A DNA stretch of 53,723 nucleotides from Flavobacteriales bacterium (GTDB taxonomy: Bacteria > Bacteroidota > Bacteroidia > Flavobacteriales_D > CAJJDF01), in contig JAHDBM010000009.1 in NCBI GenBank assembly GCA_020630395.1, positions 3,554-57,276 on the forward strand, given 5' to 3'. Positions 11,942-19,403 of this stretch are shown here, in pieces. The position numbers were made by a program, and so were the translations under genes. Position 1 is the stretch's first letter. Each line of letters begins with the position of its first letter. Under the pieces are notes generated by a model. The model was not told the origin of the DNA. It worked only from the letters and a program-made list of their open reading frames with translations, and ran no database searches.

Positions 11942-12376
11942 GTGAAAAAAGTAAGAGTATCTAAAGAATTTTTATTTGAAGCTGCCCACGCTTTAGATAA
12001 TCATGAAGGGAAATGTAAAAATTTACATGGTCATTCCTATAAATTAACGGTAACCGTTATTGGTGAGCCACAATCTAATAATGCATTATCAGATGCTGGA
12101 ATGGTAATAGATTTTTCTGATTTAAAGAAAATAGTAAATGAGCAAGTAGTAGATGTTTGGGATCATGCACTTATTTTAAAAGCGGATTCTCGATTTAAAG
12201 GAATTGAAAAGCAAAACACAAAAACCATTTATGTGCCTTATCACCCTACATGTGAAAACATGTTGTTGGATGTTGTAGGTAAAATATCAGCTCAATTACC
12301 CCAAAAAACAACTCTTATTTATGCAAAATTGCATGAAACAGCTAATAGCTTCTCTGAGTGGTGTTTAAGTGATTAA
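11942..12376 (+). CDS. queD: 6-carboxytetrahydropterin synthase / 6-pyruvoyltetrahydropterin synthase family protein
   Basis: Converts dihydroneopterin triphosphate to 6-carboxy-tetrahydropterin for queuosine synthesis. The 144 residues include the zinc ligands His16, His29 and His31 (EAAHAL and NLHGHSY), the catalytic Cys25 and the C-terminal stretch KLHETANSFSEW with the conserved glutamate. Start is GTG at 11942. Its end overlaps the convergent lipoprotein gene by four bases. Without queC, queE or queF nearby, a role in another pterin pathway cannot be excluded. Confidence 0.85.
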   Translation: MKKVRVSKEFLFEAAHALDNHEGKCKNLHGHSYKLTVTVIGEPQSNNALSDAGMVIDFSDLKKIVNEQVVDVWDHALILKADSRFKGIEKQNTKTIYVPYHPTCENMLLDVVGKISAQLPQKTTLIYAKLHETANSFSEWCLSD

Positions 12377-13380
12377 TTCCAGTTACATGTGCAACCATAC
12401 TGATCTCCTGTACTAAACCTTCTAAATTTAGAATAGCCATCATCAGTTTTATCAGCAATCACAGTAAACACTTGGTACATACAAAATCCTTTAGGATTCT
12501 TTGAAACCATGGCAACACTAAGTGTTTTCGAAACAATTGCTCCAGTATAACTTTTTTTGTAAAGATAATCTTCCGATAGGATAATCGTTTTGCCAAAAGT
12601 TTCCTGCCATCCCATATTATTAAAATGATCTACTAGTTGTTCCTCAATTGCAGGTTCATTCATGTTTGCTTTTGGTAGAGGAACTGAACTAACATGTTTC
12701 ATACGTATTTGCTCAATTTCATGGGCTAACTCATCTTTACTCTTCTTGTTTGTGGCATCATAAGTTATTTCTCCCTTAACGGCTGTTTTAGACCCACTAG
12801 AAGTATAAAGTGAGGCTTTTAACTCATAGCTTTCGTTCTTTAACTTACTCAATGTTTCCATGCTATTGGCAATGGTAGATGCTCCACCTTTTGTTGGCTT
12901 GTATTGATCAAGTGGTACGGATATGAAAAACTCTACGAACAATAACCCCTGATCGTATTTTCGATAACGCTCAATTTGCCATTTATGCTTTCGTTTGCCT
13001 ACTGTGTACTTTAAGATTGGGAAACCGTTTTGCCCAAATTTCTCTCCAGCCGTTTTATCTAAATATGCTACACCTTTAATTGTTTCCCCTGCTTTAAAGG
13101 AAGATTTAAAATCATTTGCAGTAGCGGTTTCAGGGTTAAGGTTGATGTTGTTGGTGAACAAAATCTCGTTTATATGGGCATTATGAAAATCGCTAGGATT
13201 ATAACTTAATGATCTTGGTTTTGTAATCCCCATTCGCTTATAAATAGCTCCAGAACCATCATCCTCAATAGAAGGATCAATTGTTTTATTGCCATTTTCA
13301 TCAGTCTCGGTATTTCTGCCACAACTCGTAATGGAGAATGTAAGCCAGATACCTAATAAAAGTTGAAGAAGTAATTTCAT
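12373..13380 (-). CDS. lipoprotein of unknown function
   Basis: A 335-residue protein with a lipoprotein signal (lipobox SITSC, Cys20) and an Asn/Asp/Thr-rich stretch just after it. The remaining sequence is soluble, with a repeated mixed strand-like pattern. I recognise no family. Two CxC/Cys residues lie near the C-terminus (YGCTCNWN). It converges on queD with a four-base overlap of the reading frames and no terminator between them. Cell location is inferred as lipid-anchored in the envelope. Confidence 0.75.
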   Translation of the reverse strand: MKLLLQLLLGIWLTFSITSCGRNTETDENGNKTIDPSIEDDGSGAIYKRMGITKPRSLSYNPSDFHNAHINEILFTNNINLNPETATANDFKSSFKAGETIKGVAYLDKTAGEKFGQNGFPILKYTVGKRKHKWQIERYRKYDQGLLFVEFFISVPLDQYKPTKGGASTIANSMETLSKLKNESYELKASLYTSSGSKTAVKGEITYDATNKKSKDELAHEIEQIRMKHVSSVPLPKANMNEPAIEEQLVDHFNNMGWQETFGKTIILSEDYLYKKSYTGAIVSKTLSVAMVSKNPKGFCMYQVFTVIADKTDDGYSKFRRFSTGDQYGCTCNWN

Positions 13381-13414
13381 GCGATAGGATTTTTATAAAT
13401 TAATAATAAGATAA

Positions 13415-14206
13415 TTATTTGTTTTGAGGTAAACCAAGAAGATAGAGTTTATTACCTCCTTTTCCTTTTAGACTGTCCATCTCCCATTTATAATTGGTGT
13501 CATCTTCTAATCCTTCTAGTAAGATTTTCATATCATTTATAGTATATGTTCTTGCATTAGAAACTGCTCCATCCCAAGCGATCATTAATGGTAGGATAGG
13601 TATTAAATAGGTAAATGTAAATTGTTGCCATGTAAATGGACGAACAAGTGGAGTAAATAAAAATGTCATAATAAACCCAAATGGTATAGCAATCCACCAA
13701 AGGAAAATAGGAAATCCGTTATCGCTTATTTCATAAATACATATAGGCTGGTTATCGTCTTTAGCATCTTTTAAAATACCTTTAGCGATATCTGGTTTCA
13801 TGTGATGCATACTACATATCATGGTTCTGAGGCCATTAATTTTTTTATCAACTTTGGTTGCATTTACAGAGCCAGTTAAGTAAGTTAATGAAGGGTCATT
13901 TTTAGCATTTATTTTATTTGCAAATTTTTTATGCGGATATAAATCACTGAAGGAAAATTTCACGTCAATATTATGCTTGTCTTTTAATACTTGTTTTACA
14001 TCAAGCATTGGTCCGCCACTGCCGCTACACATATCCAATACATGTTTTTTTTTGCTGTGTTTTAGGCCTTTGTTAATTATGCCAGCTAATTGCTCGTGTG
14101 TAGCCAGTATTTTATGGAAAGCAACAATATAATTAGTCATACAGTCTCTTAGCCAAGATGGAAACCATTTAAAATCTTCGAATTCGAATAGGTGTATTCT
14201 TTTCAT
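13415..14206 (-). CDS. SAM-dependent methyltransferase-like protein with C-terminal membrane segments
   Basis: 263 residues. The SAM-binding motif I is clear at residues 56-65 (VLDMCSGSGG), followed by an acidic FSFSDLY at the position of motif II and CSMHHMKPD at the position of motif IV. Unusually, two hydrophobic segments follow (about 165-184 and 195-211) before a soluble tail, suggesting attachment to the inner membrane. The substrate is not evident; a membrane lipid or small hydrophobic acceptor would fit. It lies 43 bases after a small unknown gene on the same strand. Confidence 0.75.
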   Translation of the reverse strand: MKRIHLFEFEDFKWFPSWLRDCMTNYIVAFHKILATHEQLAGIINKGLKHSKKKHVLDMCSGSGGPMLDVKQVLKDKHNIDVKFSFSDLYPHKKFANKINAKNDPSLTYLTGSVNATKVDKKINGLRTMICSMHHMKPDIAKGILKDAKDDNQPICIYEISDNGFPIFLWWIAIPFGFIMTFLFTPLVRPFTWQQFTFTYLIPILPLMIAWDGAVSNARTYTINDMKILLEGLEDDTNYKWEMDSLKGKGGNKLYLLGLPQNK

Positions 14207-14223
14207 TCTTAAGTGATTTTTAG

Positions 14224-14262
14224 TTTTATTAAAGATAGTAGTATAAATACTATTTAATAAAA
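14224..14262. repeat. AT-only inverted repeat over a gene end
   Basis: TTTTATTAAA (14224-14233) pairs with TTTAATAAAA (14253-14262), and ATAGTA with TACTAT inside. The structure covers the stop codon of the minus-strand gene ending at 14250 and has T-runs on both strands, so it could act as a weak bidirectional terminator. Confidence 0.4.
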
Positions 14263-14633
14263 ATGAACAGTCGATTAAAGAATTGATCTCTAAAAATAAC
14301 AGTCATGCGAGAAGTTTTGGCTGTTGTATTTTGCAAGGGTTTGAAAATACGCTCAAAAAAATCTATAAAGATTGGTTCTTGATGCTCAGATAAATGAATA
14401 TTATCAATGTAAATATCACCATTATAGGGTATTGAGATAGCGTTAATTCTATTTTGAATAATAGCTAGTTTTATTGAAGGGTCATTGCTTAAATAGTAAT
14501 TGAAGTTCCCTACAGGATCAGATTCGGAAACAAAGTCTCCTTTTTTTACGTATTCTATTGGATTTCCATTTAAGAAATCTAACCCTTTAAATTTAGCAGG
14601 ATCAAAAGTATATTGTTTTTTCTCAACAAGCAT
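14250..14633 (-). CDS. small protein of unknown function
   Basis: 127 residues, no signal peptide and no membrane helix. It starts directly after the stop of the AlkD-like gene (no bases between), so the two are translationally linked. The sequence contains a mix of strands (YTFDPAKFKGLDFLNG, ISIPYNGDIYIDNIHLSEHQEP) and ends in RLFIFIK. I recognise no family. Given the operon with a DNA-alkylation-repair-type protein, a related role is possible but unproven. Confidence 0.7.
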   Translation of the reverse strand: MLVEKKQYTFDPAKFKGLDFLNGNPIEYVKKGDFVSESDPVGNFNYYLSNDPSIKLAIIQNRINAISIPYNGDIYIDNIHLSEHQEPIFIDFFERIFKPLQNTTAKTSRMTVIFRDQFFNRLFIFIK

Positions 14634-15338
14634 TTATGGGCGATATGTTTCTCTAGGATAGTCCATTATTTTACACGTGTCTTTTTCTAGTTCTCTAAGA
14701 GCATCTTTTATAATCCAGCTACAAGCTTTATCATTAGGATATTTTTCGTTCATTTTATAACAAAATGATGTAGCAGAATCTCTTAAATCTTCATTTCGTT
14801 TACCAATACTTCTTATTGCCCAATTAACCGCTTTTTTTGTATATAATCTATTGTCGGTTATGCTAGATTCGATAATAGAGAAAAAAGACATAAAAACTTT
14901 ATTAATTTCTTTTTTGTGAGCGTAGCTATAAGAAGCCATTGTTGCAAAACCTGCTCTTTTTTCGAATTCACCTTTTCTAGAAGTCCAAGCTTTTATTTTT
15001 GTTAAAGCTAAAGGAGATTTTGATATAATATTTTGTGAGAAAGCGTCACAAATTTCCCAATTGTTAAATGTTTTTACCCATGTTTCGGCTAATTCATTCG
15101 TAAGTTCGTTAGGTGGAAAACATTTACTGCAGAGTAGTTTTGCTTCGTAAATATTAGTGCGCCAAAGTGTTAAGGCTAAGTCTTTATTATACCCTATGTT
15201 TTTTGCAATTTGATTGAGGTCTTTATGTGAAATACCAAGCCCATTGGTATTAGATATACCAAATTTAACTTCTCTTTTTTTTACTAATTCAGGATCAGCA
15301 AGAAAATGAAGAGATTCAATTATTTCGTTTAACTCCAA
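14634..15338 (-). CDS. AlkD-like DNA alkylation repair HEAT-repeat protein
   Basis: 234 residues of all-helical HEAT-like repeats. AlkD-type glycosylases remove bulky or cationic alkylated purines. The conserved block LSHKDLNQIAKNIG-like near residues 35-48, the helix with LCSKCFPPNEL, the WEICDAFSQN stretch at about 95-104, and KKAVNWAIRSIGKRN at about 168-182 are the reasons for the call. The family also contains non-catalytic DNA-binding members, so the activity is inferred. It ends exactly where the next small gene begins and starts six bases after accD, giving a tight minus-strand run. Confidence 0.82.
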   Translation of the reverse strand: MELNEIIESLHFLADPELVKKREVKFGISNTNGLGISHKDLNQIAKNIGYNKDLALTLWRTNIYEAKLLCSKCFPPNELTNELAETWVKTFNNWEICDAFSQNIISKSPLALTKIKAWTSRKGEFEKRAGFATMASYSYAHKKEINKVFMSFFSIIESSITDNRLYTKKAVNWAIRSIGKRNEDLRDSATSFCYKMNEKYPNDKACSWIIKDALRELEKDTCKIMDYPRETYRP

Positions 15339-16217: not shown

Positions 16218-17279
16218 TTATGCAATCGTAATTTTATCGTCTAGGTATACATCTTGAACTGCGTTCAATAGTTTAATACCATCACTCATGTCTTTTTGGA
16301 ATGCTTTTCTTCCTAAAATTAGACCATGACCACCAGCTCTTTTATTAATTACAGCAGTTTTAACTGCCTCATTAAGATCAGTTCCTTTTTCTCCAGTAGA
16401 TGCTCCACCTGAGTTAATTAAACCAATTTTACCCATGTAGCAATTGGCTACTTGGTAACGGCATAAGTCAATTGGGTTATCTGTAGTTAAGTCAGAGTAT
16501 ACTTTTTTATGAGTTTTGCCAAAACCAATATTTGTATATCCCCCGTTTAATGTAGGAAGTTTTTGTTTAATAATATCAGCCTGTATAGTAACACCTAAAT
16601 GATTTGCTTGAGAGGTAATGTCGGTAGCAGTATGATAATCTACTCCGTCTTTTTTAAATCCACTATTTCTTAGGTAGCACCATAAAATAGTAGCCATCCC
16701 TAATTCATGAGCTCTTTCAAATGCTTGTGCAACTTCAATTATTTGTCTAGAAGAATCTTCTGATCCAAAATAGATAGTAGCACCAACTGCCGTAGCTCCA
16801 AGGTTCCATGCTTCTTCTACCGATCCAAACATAATTTGGCTGTATTTTTCTGGGTAAGTAAGCATTTCGTTATGGTTTAACTTTACGATAAACGGAATTT
16901 TATGAGCATATTTTCTAGAACATGATGCTAGTACACCAAATGTAGAAGCAACACCATTACAACCTCCTTCAATTGCTAGTTTTACAATGTTTTCTGGATC
17001 GAAATAAATAGGGTTTGGCGCAAAAGATGCTCCTGCTGCATGTTCTATACCCTGATCTACAGGTAATATAGATACATGTCCTGTTCCTCCAAGTCTCCCA
17101 TGACTATATAGTGCCTCAAGACTTCTCAAAACTTGAGGGCTTCTATTCGTGTTAATGAATGCTTCAGTTGTAAAGTCACCATTAGGTAACATTAACATAT
17201 CTTTAGTGATGGTTTTACTTGTATGGTTTAAAAGTGCATCTGCATCAGCACCTAAAAGTTCTTCTATATTTAAAGACAT
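16218..17279 (-). CDS. fbaB: class I fructose-bisphosphate aldolase (FbaB/DhnA type)
   Basis: Cleaves fructose 1,6-bisphosphate to two triose phosphates in glycolysis and the reverse in gluconeogenesis, through a Schiff-base lysine. 353 residues, normal for the archaeal-type class I group. Diagnostic stretches are [19 protein letters not shown] (about 77-95), [30 protein letters not shown] and [13 protein letters not shown] near the phosphate-binding end. The start at 17279 follows a leader with a TAGTTTTG box at 17302-17309. A copy of that leader (with the first codons of this gene) occurs again at about 18243-18290, part of a tandem duplication described separately. Confidence 0.93.
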
Positions 17280-17301
17280 AAAATTCTTGTTTTTAGTATG
17301 G

Positions 17302-17309
17302 CAAAACTA
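17302..17309 (-). promoter_or_regulatory. TAnnTTTG -7 box of the aldolase gene
   Basis: Reading the minus strand, TAGTTTTG matches the Bacteroidota -7 consensus TAnnTTTG, 22 bases upstream of the fbaB start codon. The second copy of this leader at 18251-18290 carries TAGTTTTT, having lost the final G. No convincing -33 TTG is seen. Confidence 0.55.
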
Positions 17310-17405
17310 TGAAAAAAAGTTAAGAAGGAGTAATTGATTTAGCCATAACTTTTTTTCAAGATTTTTTCTTTAAATTTATAATGATTTATTGTTGTTATTT
17401 AGGTT

Positions 17406-17876
17406 ATGGGTTATAGAAATTTCATGAATGTGTATTTACCAAATTTAAATGAAGCCAAATTAGAAGTAGAGTTAGAAAGGGTATTTAACATGAATAATTT
17501 TTATCTAACCAATAATGTTGATGATGAAAAGGGAGTTGTTGAAGTTAGGAAGGTTCGTAATTGGCTAGTTTTAATGTTTAATGATACAATGGATGATCGA
17601 ATGAATTTAGCATGGAATAAATACATTATATCATATTACATTAGTCTTAAATCGGATAATATTATAACATCTGTTTGGCTTAGTAATTTGGAAAATGAAA
17701 TTAGTGGCTGTTGGATAGCAACTAATGTTGTTATTTCTGATCTTATAAAAAAGATGAGGCCAGATAATTTATTAGATCGATTTTCTGCTGTGGATAATGA
17801 TCAATTAGTTAGTTCGGCATTTACTCATTTTGATAGTACAAGAAATGATTCTTTATTTTACATTTCAAAAAGTTAA
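17406..17876 (+). CDS. protein of unknown function (cargo gene 1 of the duplicated module)
   Basis: 156 residues, soluble, no signal peptide, rich in Asn and Asp (LPNLNEAKLEVELERVF, NWLVLMFNDTMDDRMNLAW). The alternation of short strands and helices looks like a small alpha/beta protein such as a chaperone-like or YbjN-like fold, but I cannot support a family call. It is transcribed away from the fbaB leader and ends six bases before the ispF pseudogene remnant, which faces it. Its counterpart position in the second module copy is filled by an unrelated lipoprotein gene. Confidence 0.6.
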   Translation: MGYRNFMNVYLPNLNEAKLEVELERVFNMNNFYLTNNVDDEKGVVEVRKVRNWLVLMFNDTMDDRMNLAWNKYIISYYISLKSDNIITSVWLSNLENEISGCWIATNVVISDLIKKMRPDNLLDRFSAVDNDQLVSSAFTHFDSTRNDSLFYISKS

Positions 17877-17881
17877 TTAAT

Positions 17882-18244
17882 CTTATAAATCAAACCTGAG
17901 GCACAGGTGTTAATATTTCTTCTCTCCCAACAAAGCCTAATTTTTTGGCTGTAGTTGCTTTTGCCGATCCTTGATCTATGTTAATTGAAAGTGTATAGTA
18001 ATATAAACTTTCATAGAGTCTATATACGATACAATTTTAGGTTGTTGTAAATATATTGTGTTGTTGATATTACTTATAGTGTATTCTTTTTTATTAAAAA
18101 GGTTAGCAACTTTTTTCAGTAAGATTTTACTGTCTATTCCTTTGTATGCATCAGAAGTGTCAGAAAAATGTTTGTCGATATCTCCTAAGCTACTGAAACC
18201 AATAATGCATCTGTTGTAGTGTGAAGTAGTATATTAGCATCATT
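17882..18244 (-). pseudogene. ispF: decayed duplicate of ispF, N-terminus missing
   Basis: Minus-strand sequence that aligns along its whole length with intact ispF at 18930-19293. Recognisable translations include KATTAKKLGFVGREE against KATTTEKLGFVGREE, and a 38-base block around 18124-18161 identical to ispF. It lacks the first roughly 37 codons including the metal-binding Asp-x-His, and has a one-base deletion giving a stop after about 15 residues plus another frameshift just after GREE. At its upstream end it joins, at a GCATCA sequence present in both genes, to the first bases of fbaB. This covers most of the 455-base stretch 17877-18331 that holds no functional gene. Confidence 0.9.
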
Positions 18245-18290
18245 ACCTAAAAAATCTTGTTTTTGATATGGAAAAACTATGAATAAAAAA
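18245..18290. repeat. copy of the fbaB leader and 5' tip
   Basis: 18251-18290 aligns without gaps to 17281-17320 (leader of fbaB) with about five mismatches; 18242-18250 resembles the first codons of fbaB, with about 27 bases including the start codon deleted. It is the right-hand half of the junction of a tandem duplication with the ispF remnant. The promoter box is altered (TAGTTTTT). Confidence 0.8.
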
Positions 18291-18331
18291 TGTTTTATTT
18301 ATCATTCATAATTAAATAATACAAATCAAGT

Positions 18332-18922
18332 ATGACACTTTACAAATATTCGTTTCCACTTTTAATAATTTTAATTGTTTTTTCATGTGACAATGGTTGT
18401 CCTGAGGTTGATGACAAGGAAAAAGTTAAACAGAATACAATTGTGAATGAAAAAAAGGGAGAAGATAAAACAAATGATAGTGGAGCTAGTTTTTTTGAAA
18501 TAGATAATAAATTAAAAGGACTAATGGATGGAGAAGATTGGGAATATGGTAGTGCTGTTTTTTCTGAGGAAGAAATATTTGGAGAGAAAAGTTTTGATTT
18601 AACCCTTACGAAATACATAAGTGATTTATGCGGGTTTAACTATTTAAAAACACAAAAAATTAGTGTTAATATGCCTGTTTTAAAATTAGGCAAGTATTCA
18701 TTAAATGATTTATATGAAATGGATGGTATTTCAGGGATATTTATAAGAGATCCCAAGTATAAAAAGGAAGCAGGTTTAATGGGATGGATAGTTGAAAAAG
18801 GAAGTATAGAGATCACTAAAATTAGTAGTGACAGGCAAGTCATTGAAGGATATATTAAAGCATATATTGATGAGGATTTTGATTTAGAAGGTAGTTTTAA
18901 AGCTAAAAGATGTAGATTATAA
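18332..18922 (+). CDS. lipoprotein of unknown function (cargo gene 2 of the duplicated module)
   Basis: 196 residues with a lipoprotein signal ending in LIVFSC (Cys19), then a Lys/Asp/Glu-rich linker to about residue 55 and a compact C-terminal domain (about 60-196) with several aromatic strand-like stretches (GEDWEYGSAVFSEEEIFG, GIFIRDPKYKKE, EGYIKAYIDEDFDLEGSFKA). The last pattern resembles small secreted beta-barrel proteins in this phylum, but no family is recognised. It ends four bases from the convergent ispF. It occupies the same place relative to ispF and the leader copy as the unrelated gene in the first module. Confidence 0.72.
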   Translation: MTLYKYSFPLLIILIVFSCDNGCPEVDDKEKVKQNTIVNEKKGEDKTNDSGASFFEIDNKLKGLMDGEDWEYGSAVFSEEEIFGEKSFDLTLTKYISDLCGFNYLKTQKISVNMPVLKLGKYSLNDLYEMDGISGIFIRDPKYKKEAGLMGWIVEKGSIEITKISSDRQVIEGYIKAYIDEDFDLEGSFKAKRCRL

Positions 18923-18926
18923 TTAT

Positions 18927-19403
18927 CTACTTATATATCAAACAAGAAGCATAGGCGCTTATACCTTCTTCTCTACCTACAAATCCTAGTTTTTCAGTAG
19001 TGGTTGCTTTAACAGATACTTGATCTACATTAATAGATAAAACATTAGCAATACATTGCCTCATTTTATCTATATAGGGAGCAATTTTAGGTTGCTGAAG
19101 ACAAATGGTACTATCAATGTTACCGATAGAATATCCTTTTTCTTTAATCAGTTCCACAACTTTCTTTAGTAAAATTTTACTGTCTATTCCTTTGTATGCA
19201 TCAGAAGTGTCAGGAAAATGTTTGCCGATATCTCCTAAAGCGGCTGCACCTAATAATGCATCTGTTATAGCGTGAAGTAATACATCAGCATCAGAATGAC
19301 CAACAGCACCTTTCGTATGATCGATTTTAATACCACCTAACCAAAACTCTTCACCTTCTTTTAATTGATGAACATCATAACCGATACCAGTTCTTATATT
19401 CAT
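18927..19403 (-). CDS. ispF: 2-C-methyl-D-erythritol 2,4-cyclodiphosphate synthase IspF
   Basis: Cyclises CDP-methylerythritol phosphate in the MEP isoprenoid pathway. 158 residues, full length. Metal ligands Asp10 and His12 (GYDVHQL) and His44 (VLLHAI), the loop HSDADVLLHAITDALLGAA and the C-terminal KATTTEKLGFVGREEG are all intact. It starts three bases after the porV stop, so it is probably read through from the T9SS gene porV. A decayed second copy lies about 1 kb downstream. Confidence 0.97.
   Translation of the reverse strand: MNIRTGIGYDVHQLKEGEEFWLGGIKIDHTKGAVGHSDADVLLHAITDALLGAAALGDIGKHFPDTSDAYKGIDSKILLKKVVELIKEKGYSIGNIDSTICLQQPKIAPYIDKMRQCIANVLSINVDQVSVKATTTEKLGFVGREEGISAYASCLIYK

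Follow-up and report, generated by a model that had tools for sequence, protein, structure and literature searches.

Two unrelated genes in a decayed tandem duplication between fbaB and ispF of a Flavobacteriales bacterium

Layout of the fbaB–ispF interval

The window, meaning the whole stretch of DNA that was analyzed, comprises 53,723 nucleotides from a Flavobacteriales genome (assembly GCA_020630395.1, contig JAHDBM010000009.1), and all positions below are counted from its first letter. Between intact fbaB and intact ispF, both on the minus strand, lie a decayed second copy of ispF, a second fbaB leader and two genes on the plus strand that we refer to as A and B:

16218–17279, minus strand: fbaB, an intact class I (DeoC/LacD-type) aldolase gene (Pfam DeoC, E 1.4e-60)
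17280–17405, minus strand: leader of the working fbaB (copy 1), with TAGTTTTG at 17302–17309
17406–17876, plus strand: gene A, 156 aa, no signal peptide seen
17882–18242, minus strand: ispF pseudogene, from about codon 37 to the end, with three 1-base deletions and no start region
18222–18249, minus strand: duplication junction, read directly, at which a remnant of the first fbaB codons (TTTTAGGT..TGATGC) runs into ispF
18250–18288, minus strand: copy of the fbaB leader (copy 2), 87% identical to copy 1, with its TAnnTTTG-like box broken
18332–18922, plus strand: gene B, encoding a 196-aa predicted lipoprotein (Cys19)
18927–19403, minus strand: ispF, intact, 158 aa (Pfam YgbB, E 7.4e-73, profile positions 1–154 of 155)

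A single copy of fbaB was found in this genome (one match), and the intact ispF is 76–79% identical to its orthologues in five relatives (G001–G005, discussed below). Genes A and B both end about 5 bases or less from an ispF 3′ end, that of the pseudogene in the case of A and that of the intact gene in the case of B, and their G+C contents are 0.274 and 0.286, respectively, compared with 0.317 for the window. Both open reading frames look coding: their codon scores are 0.138 (A) and 0.247 (B), on a scale where 31 long training ORFs, scored on themselves, range upward from 0.081 (median 0.186) and the highest of 20 spurious overlapping ORFs is 0.074.

Two minor features were seen within the interval. 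An inverted repeat at 17303–17365, with 20-nt arms that are 85% complementary and 23 nt apart, overlaps the fbaB promoter region upstream of gene A; the DNA is AT-rich, and the pairing could have arisen by chance. An Rfam scan returned one sub-threshold match, to mir-1923 at 18087–18158 inside the ispF pseudogene (27.4 bits against a gathering score of 94), which we took as chance.

A tandem duplication and the decay of its spare parts

The preliminary description of this DNA had proposed that a module was duplicated here, and the repeats bear this out. Positions 17996–18188 match 19046–19238 at 77% identity, 18187–18242 match 19238–19293 at 82%, and the leader segments 17280–17318 and 18250–18288 match at 87%, with a score that none of 200 dinucleotide shuffles reached. 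A direct repeat beside the original, single in relatives and with a novel junction, marks a real tandem duplication of a chromosomal unit. That unit runs from ispF, of which it holds the 3′ three quarters, through the spacer into the first fbaB codons, and its ends are joined where fbaB and ispF have CTGATGCWGATG in common. When the first 100 bases of fbaB are aligned locally with ispF, the top match pairs CTGATGCAGATG (fbaB codons 11–15) with CTGATGCTGATG (ispF nucleotides 110–121). A match of this score is not unusual by itself, being equalled or bettered in 95 of 200 shuffles; what matters is that it coincides with the observed junction, which fits a tandem duplication that arose through recombination at a very short shared sequence.

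Duplications that depend on 0–5 shared bases have been described in A. baylyi (PMC9997567), and the cases presented there resemble this one in that a direct duplication joins two different genes at few shared bases. The amplicons given in that report are far larger, at 12–290 kb, whereas the ancestral unit here is about 0.5 kb, and the ispF–fbaB duplication, unlike those amplicons as they are portrayed, is old, decayed and without known selection.

The duplicated ispF is a pseudogene that fails an open-reading-frame test, its start region being missing and its frame broken by the three 1-base deletions. The preliminary description notes neither this decay nor the closeness of A and B to the ispF 3′ ends. 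It is 74.9% identical to the intact ispF of its own genome (382 compared sites) and 61% identical to that of G001; in a tree of seven sequences, it groups with the intact ispF with a support of 97, the branch lengths being 0.455 for the copy and 0.042 for the intact gene. The pseudogene derives from the ispF of its own genome. Polarized on G001, the changes at codon positions 1, 2 and 3 number 22, 19 and 16 in the copy and 5, 0 and 16 in the intact gene, and Fisher's test of positions 1+2 versus 3 separates the two (p = 2.0e-4, or 0.0079 when polarized with the majority of outgroups). The copy has decayed neutrally, without codon-position bias. Together, the tree, the codon-position changes and the deletions imply that the copy came into being in its own lineage once G001 had split off, and that it has spent most of its history decaying as a pseudogene.

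Decay has also reached the spare fbaB leader. In copy 1, TAGTTTTG lies 30 bases before the ATG, at the same offset as TAGCTTTG in G001. The TAnnTTTG box, which we take to be the −7 element of Bacteroidota, is present in all five relatives and in copy 1 and absent from copy 2; by chance, it appears in 4.6% of shuffled leaders.

The proteins encoded by A and B

The two genes were initially described as encoding a soluble protein of 156 residues and a lipoprotein of 196 residues with no visible similarity, and our comparisons agree: the ORFs are as described, the best BLASTP piece between the proteins is 10 residues long (E 0.19), and the score of the DNA alignment was reached by 192 of 200 shuffles on the same strand and by 60 of 200 on the opposite strand. 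BLASTP and the shuffled DNA alignments thus rule out a recognizable A–B homology. Single-sequence AlphaFold models were unusable, with mean pLDDT values of 33.8 for A and 34.5 for B without its signal peptide. A is probably a soluble cytoplasmic protein and B is probably exported as a lipoprotein.

Gene A had no convincing relative among 120 related genomes, 395 genomes of the phylum and 339 of the order (overlapping sets). At E ≤ 1, 22 of the 120 relatives gave a match, its own genome included, the best non-self value being 0.0198. At E ≤ 0.01, matches were found in 8 of the phylum genomes (own included; best non-self 5.6e-4, with two stops inside) and in 4 of those from the order (own included; best non-self 0.00107). 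Three of the non-self candidates were inspected and taken as chance: the match at L072 is covered by no ORF of at least 80 aa on its strand, the one at L075 lies in a small ORF opposite a larger one, and the one at L167 lies inside a methyltransferase-like ORF. Searches of viral contigs, phages and plasmids found no relative of A, and neither NCBIfam nor PADLOC gave a match; the best hits to known families had E values of 0.052 (Pfam), 0.013 (PHROG) and 0.42 (PDB chain).

Gene B has a lipobox-like LIVFSC at residues 14–19. Matches to it, own genome included, were found in 17 of the 120 relatives, 3 of the 395 phylum genomes and 5 of the 339 order genomes, and no relative was found in viral contigs, phages or plasmids. 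A match at L156 belongs to a response-regulator-like ORF and was taken as chance. The best candidate is a 168-aa two-cysteine lipoprotein in genome G587 (L171:1498–2001, minus strand), at a locus unrelated to the ispF–fbaB site. It is colinear with B, sharing 36 of 145 aligned columns (25%) as well as the lipobox cysteine and two further cysteines, and the BLASTP E value is 8e-9 as a single comparison. The relation is borderline, since in the discovery search the E value was 0.0027 for one genome of 339; the G587 protein is a probable distant relative of B. Its ending resembles that of B (Gx(n)EIT...GxFxA..C). A profile built from these two sequences retrieved no further member in 31 relatives or the PDB, and the G587 protein matched no named family in Pfam, NCBIfam or PHROGs. 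Lipoproteins of this type could possibly form a widespread, undescribed family, and our working guess is that B is an accessory lipoprotein facing the surface or the periplasm.

The site in relatives and the arrival of the two genes

Among 120 relatives searched, an ispF match was found in 81, an fbaB match in 42, and both in 19. The two genes are adjacent in 6 of these 19, namely the genome studied here and G001–G005, which are all the members of the family in the set; in 12 of the 19 they are on different contigs, and in G099 they are approximately 2.76 Mb apart on one contig. In each of the five relatives, ispF and fbaB sit in a gldJ–porP–porU–porV–ispF–fbaB–accD block (gldJ is partial in G005, at a contig end). 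The names porU, porV, porP, gldJ and accD, like queD used below, are labels that we presume to fit these neighbors. The spacer from ispF to fbaB measures 70, 126, 142, 145 and 137 bp in G001 through G005, and in all five it holds no gene, no A, no B and no ispF remnant. Two broader searches were made: a scan of genome contigs for fbaB gave 80 loci, none with ispF in its flank, although several flanks were short and near relatives may have been left out; and a DNA search of 17280–18926 against 20 genomes returned, among the matches listed, ispF in the genome itself, G004 and G001, and otherwise only short AT-rich matches.

As the spacer is empty in all five relatives, the duplicated unit most likely carried no cargo; this ancestral state is read from just five genomes, a single one of which belongs to the same genus. 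The preliminary description had expected both copies to hold related genes; a spacer of 70–145 bp that is gene-free throughout the family relatives speaks against this, and the notion that related cargo is obligatory in duplicated modules can be corrected accordingly, the ancestral spacer having apparently been empty.

The duplicated ispF DNA still matches at 76% (E 3.2e-66), and we found no trace of A in the copy 2 interval (181 of 200 shuffles reach the score) and none of the stretch upstream of B in the copy 1 interval (78 of 200). With the neutral DNA of the duplication still visible at approximately 75–76% identity, any cargo that pre-dated it and was not deleted should show in both copies. 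A and B being unrelated, at least one cargo must have been gained, swapped or lost after the duplication, a point on which the preliminary description was right. Two separate gains are the simplest reading.

We therefore favor, with a probability of roughly 60%, a tandem duplication of the ispF–fbaB unit, its decay, and then separate gains of A and B, and we infer the following order of events. In the ancestor, ispF would have been followed directly by fbaB across a short spacer. A tandem duplication would then have joined fbaB codons 11–15 to ispF codons 37–41 at the short shared sequence, leaving, in order, an intact ispF, one spacer, a fusion of an fbaB stub with an ispF stub, another spacer and an intact fbaB. 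One ispF and one fbaB promoter would have been kept in use while the truncated ispF and the redundant fbaB leader degenerated. The first spacer may then have received B and the second A, in both cases between an ispF 3′ end and an fbaB promoter, where an insertion would harm neither essential gene. What speaks against two separate gains is that A and B have the same orientation and the same place, about 5 bases or less from an ispF 3′ end, a likeness that independent gains need not produce. Constraint explains part of it: with both the ispF stop and the fbaB promoter to be spared, an insertion had a few dozen bases in which to land. At neither A nor B did we find a donor, an integrase, a repeat or a target-site duplication.

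The likeness in position would follow more directly if the spacer had held A in some strains of this species and B in others, and unequal crossing-over between two such alleles had brought the genes into tandem in one step. A single event would then account for different genes in the same place and orientation, and a donor from the same species is allowed by the split of the copy from its own ispF after that from G001. Two earlier gains are still required, however, and the lack of a third-position excess on the copy indicates that it did not stay functional for long in a lineage apart. We consider this route unlikely, and it is the first of the alternatives in rank; if true, it would rank among the rare records in which a single chromosome preserves both alternative occupants of a site. 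The further idea that the spacer serves this species as a place where small orphan genes are exchanged at the population level, with the array as a captured fusion of two alleles, is more doubtful.

A little less probable than the crossover between strains is that one gene pre-dated the duplication and was later replaced or deleted in one copy while the other gene came in. This accords with the idea in the preliminary description and needs just one gain before the duplication, but neither interval holds a remnant of the other's cargo, and neither gene is at the site in any of G001–G005. Were A and B instead side by side before the duplication, with each copy losing a different one, their common orientation would be accounted for and their order would be as such losses would leave it; this calls for two clean deletions, one of them ending about 5 bases or less from the ispF 3′ end, and with no remnants seen we think it very improbable. 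That A and B are true homologues diverged past recognition since the duplication would suit their common place and orientation but is hardly credible: they lack similarity, although neutral sequence from this duplication has kept 75% identity, and a signal peptide and a colinear, distantly related lipoprotein were seen for B but not for A.

Duplication followed by separate gains leaves the question of whether the place between fbaB and ispF is a site where small genes are exchanged, as had been suggested. A gene fixed there in all relatives would have spoken against exchange; none was seen, and the constant feature is an empty site. Recurrent exchange is unsupported by the genomes compared, because the site is empty in all five relatives, and the two genes are neighbors in just 6 of the 19 genomes that have both. 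At integration hotspots, one pair of core genes flanks different genes in different genomes (PMC2617782). The likeness to the hotspots outlined there is that non-core genes lie between two conserved neighbors; the difference is that those sites hold different genes from genome to genome, whereas here none of the five relatives with adjacent ispF and fbaB carries any. Insertion with long target duplication (Nobusato et al., 2000, as described in PMC1643837) is similar in that new genes accompany a directly repeated target of which relatives have one copy. In that description, the new genes lie between the target copies, whereas A and B each lie within a copy, in the spacer between ispF and the fbaB leader, and the ispF–fbaB case, unlike the insertion described there, has no restriction-modification gene.

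The locus gives the impression of ordinary genome evolution, with no exchange of genes at this site demonstrated, and the result as it stands is an ordinary one. Its value is to show, in compact and datable form, that neutral spacer DNA added beside conserved genes by a small tandem duplication can end up holding new lineage-specific genes. Elsewhere in the window, four ORFs (335, 263, 127 and 234 aa) lie at 12373–15338 between the accD-like and queD-like genes; accD and queD are adjacent in G001, without these ORFs. None of the four was matched in the stretches of G001–G005 that were examined, and they may lie elsewhere in those genomes. Their presence suggests that gain and loss of small genes is not special to the ispF–fbaB spacer.
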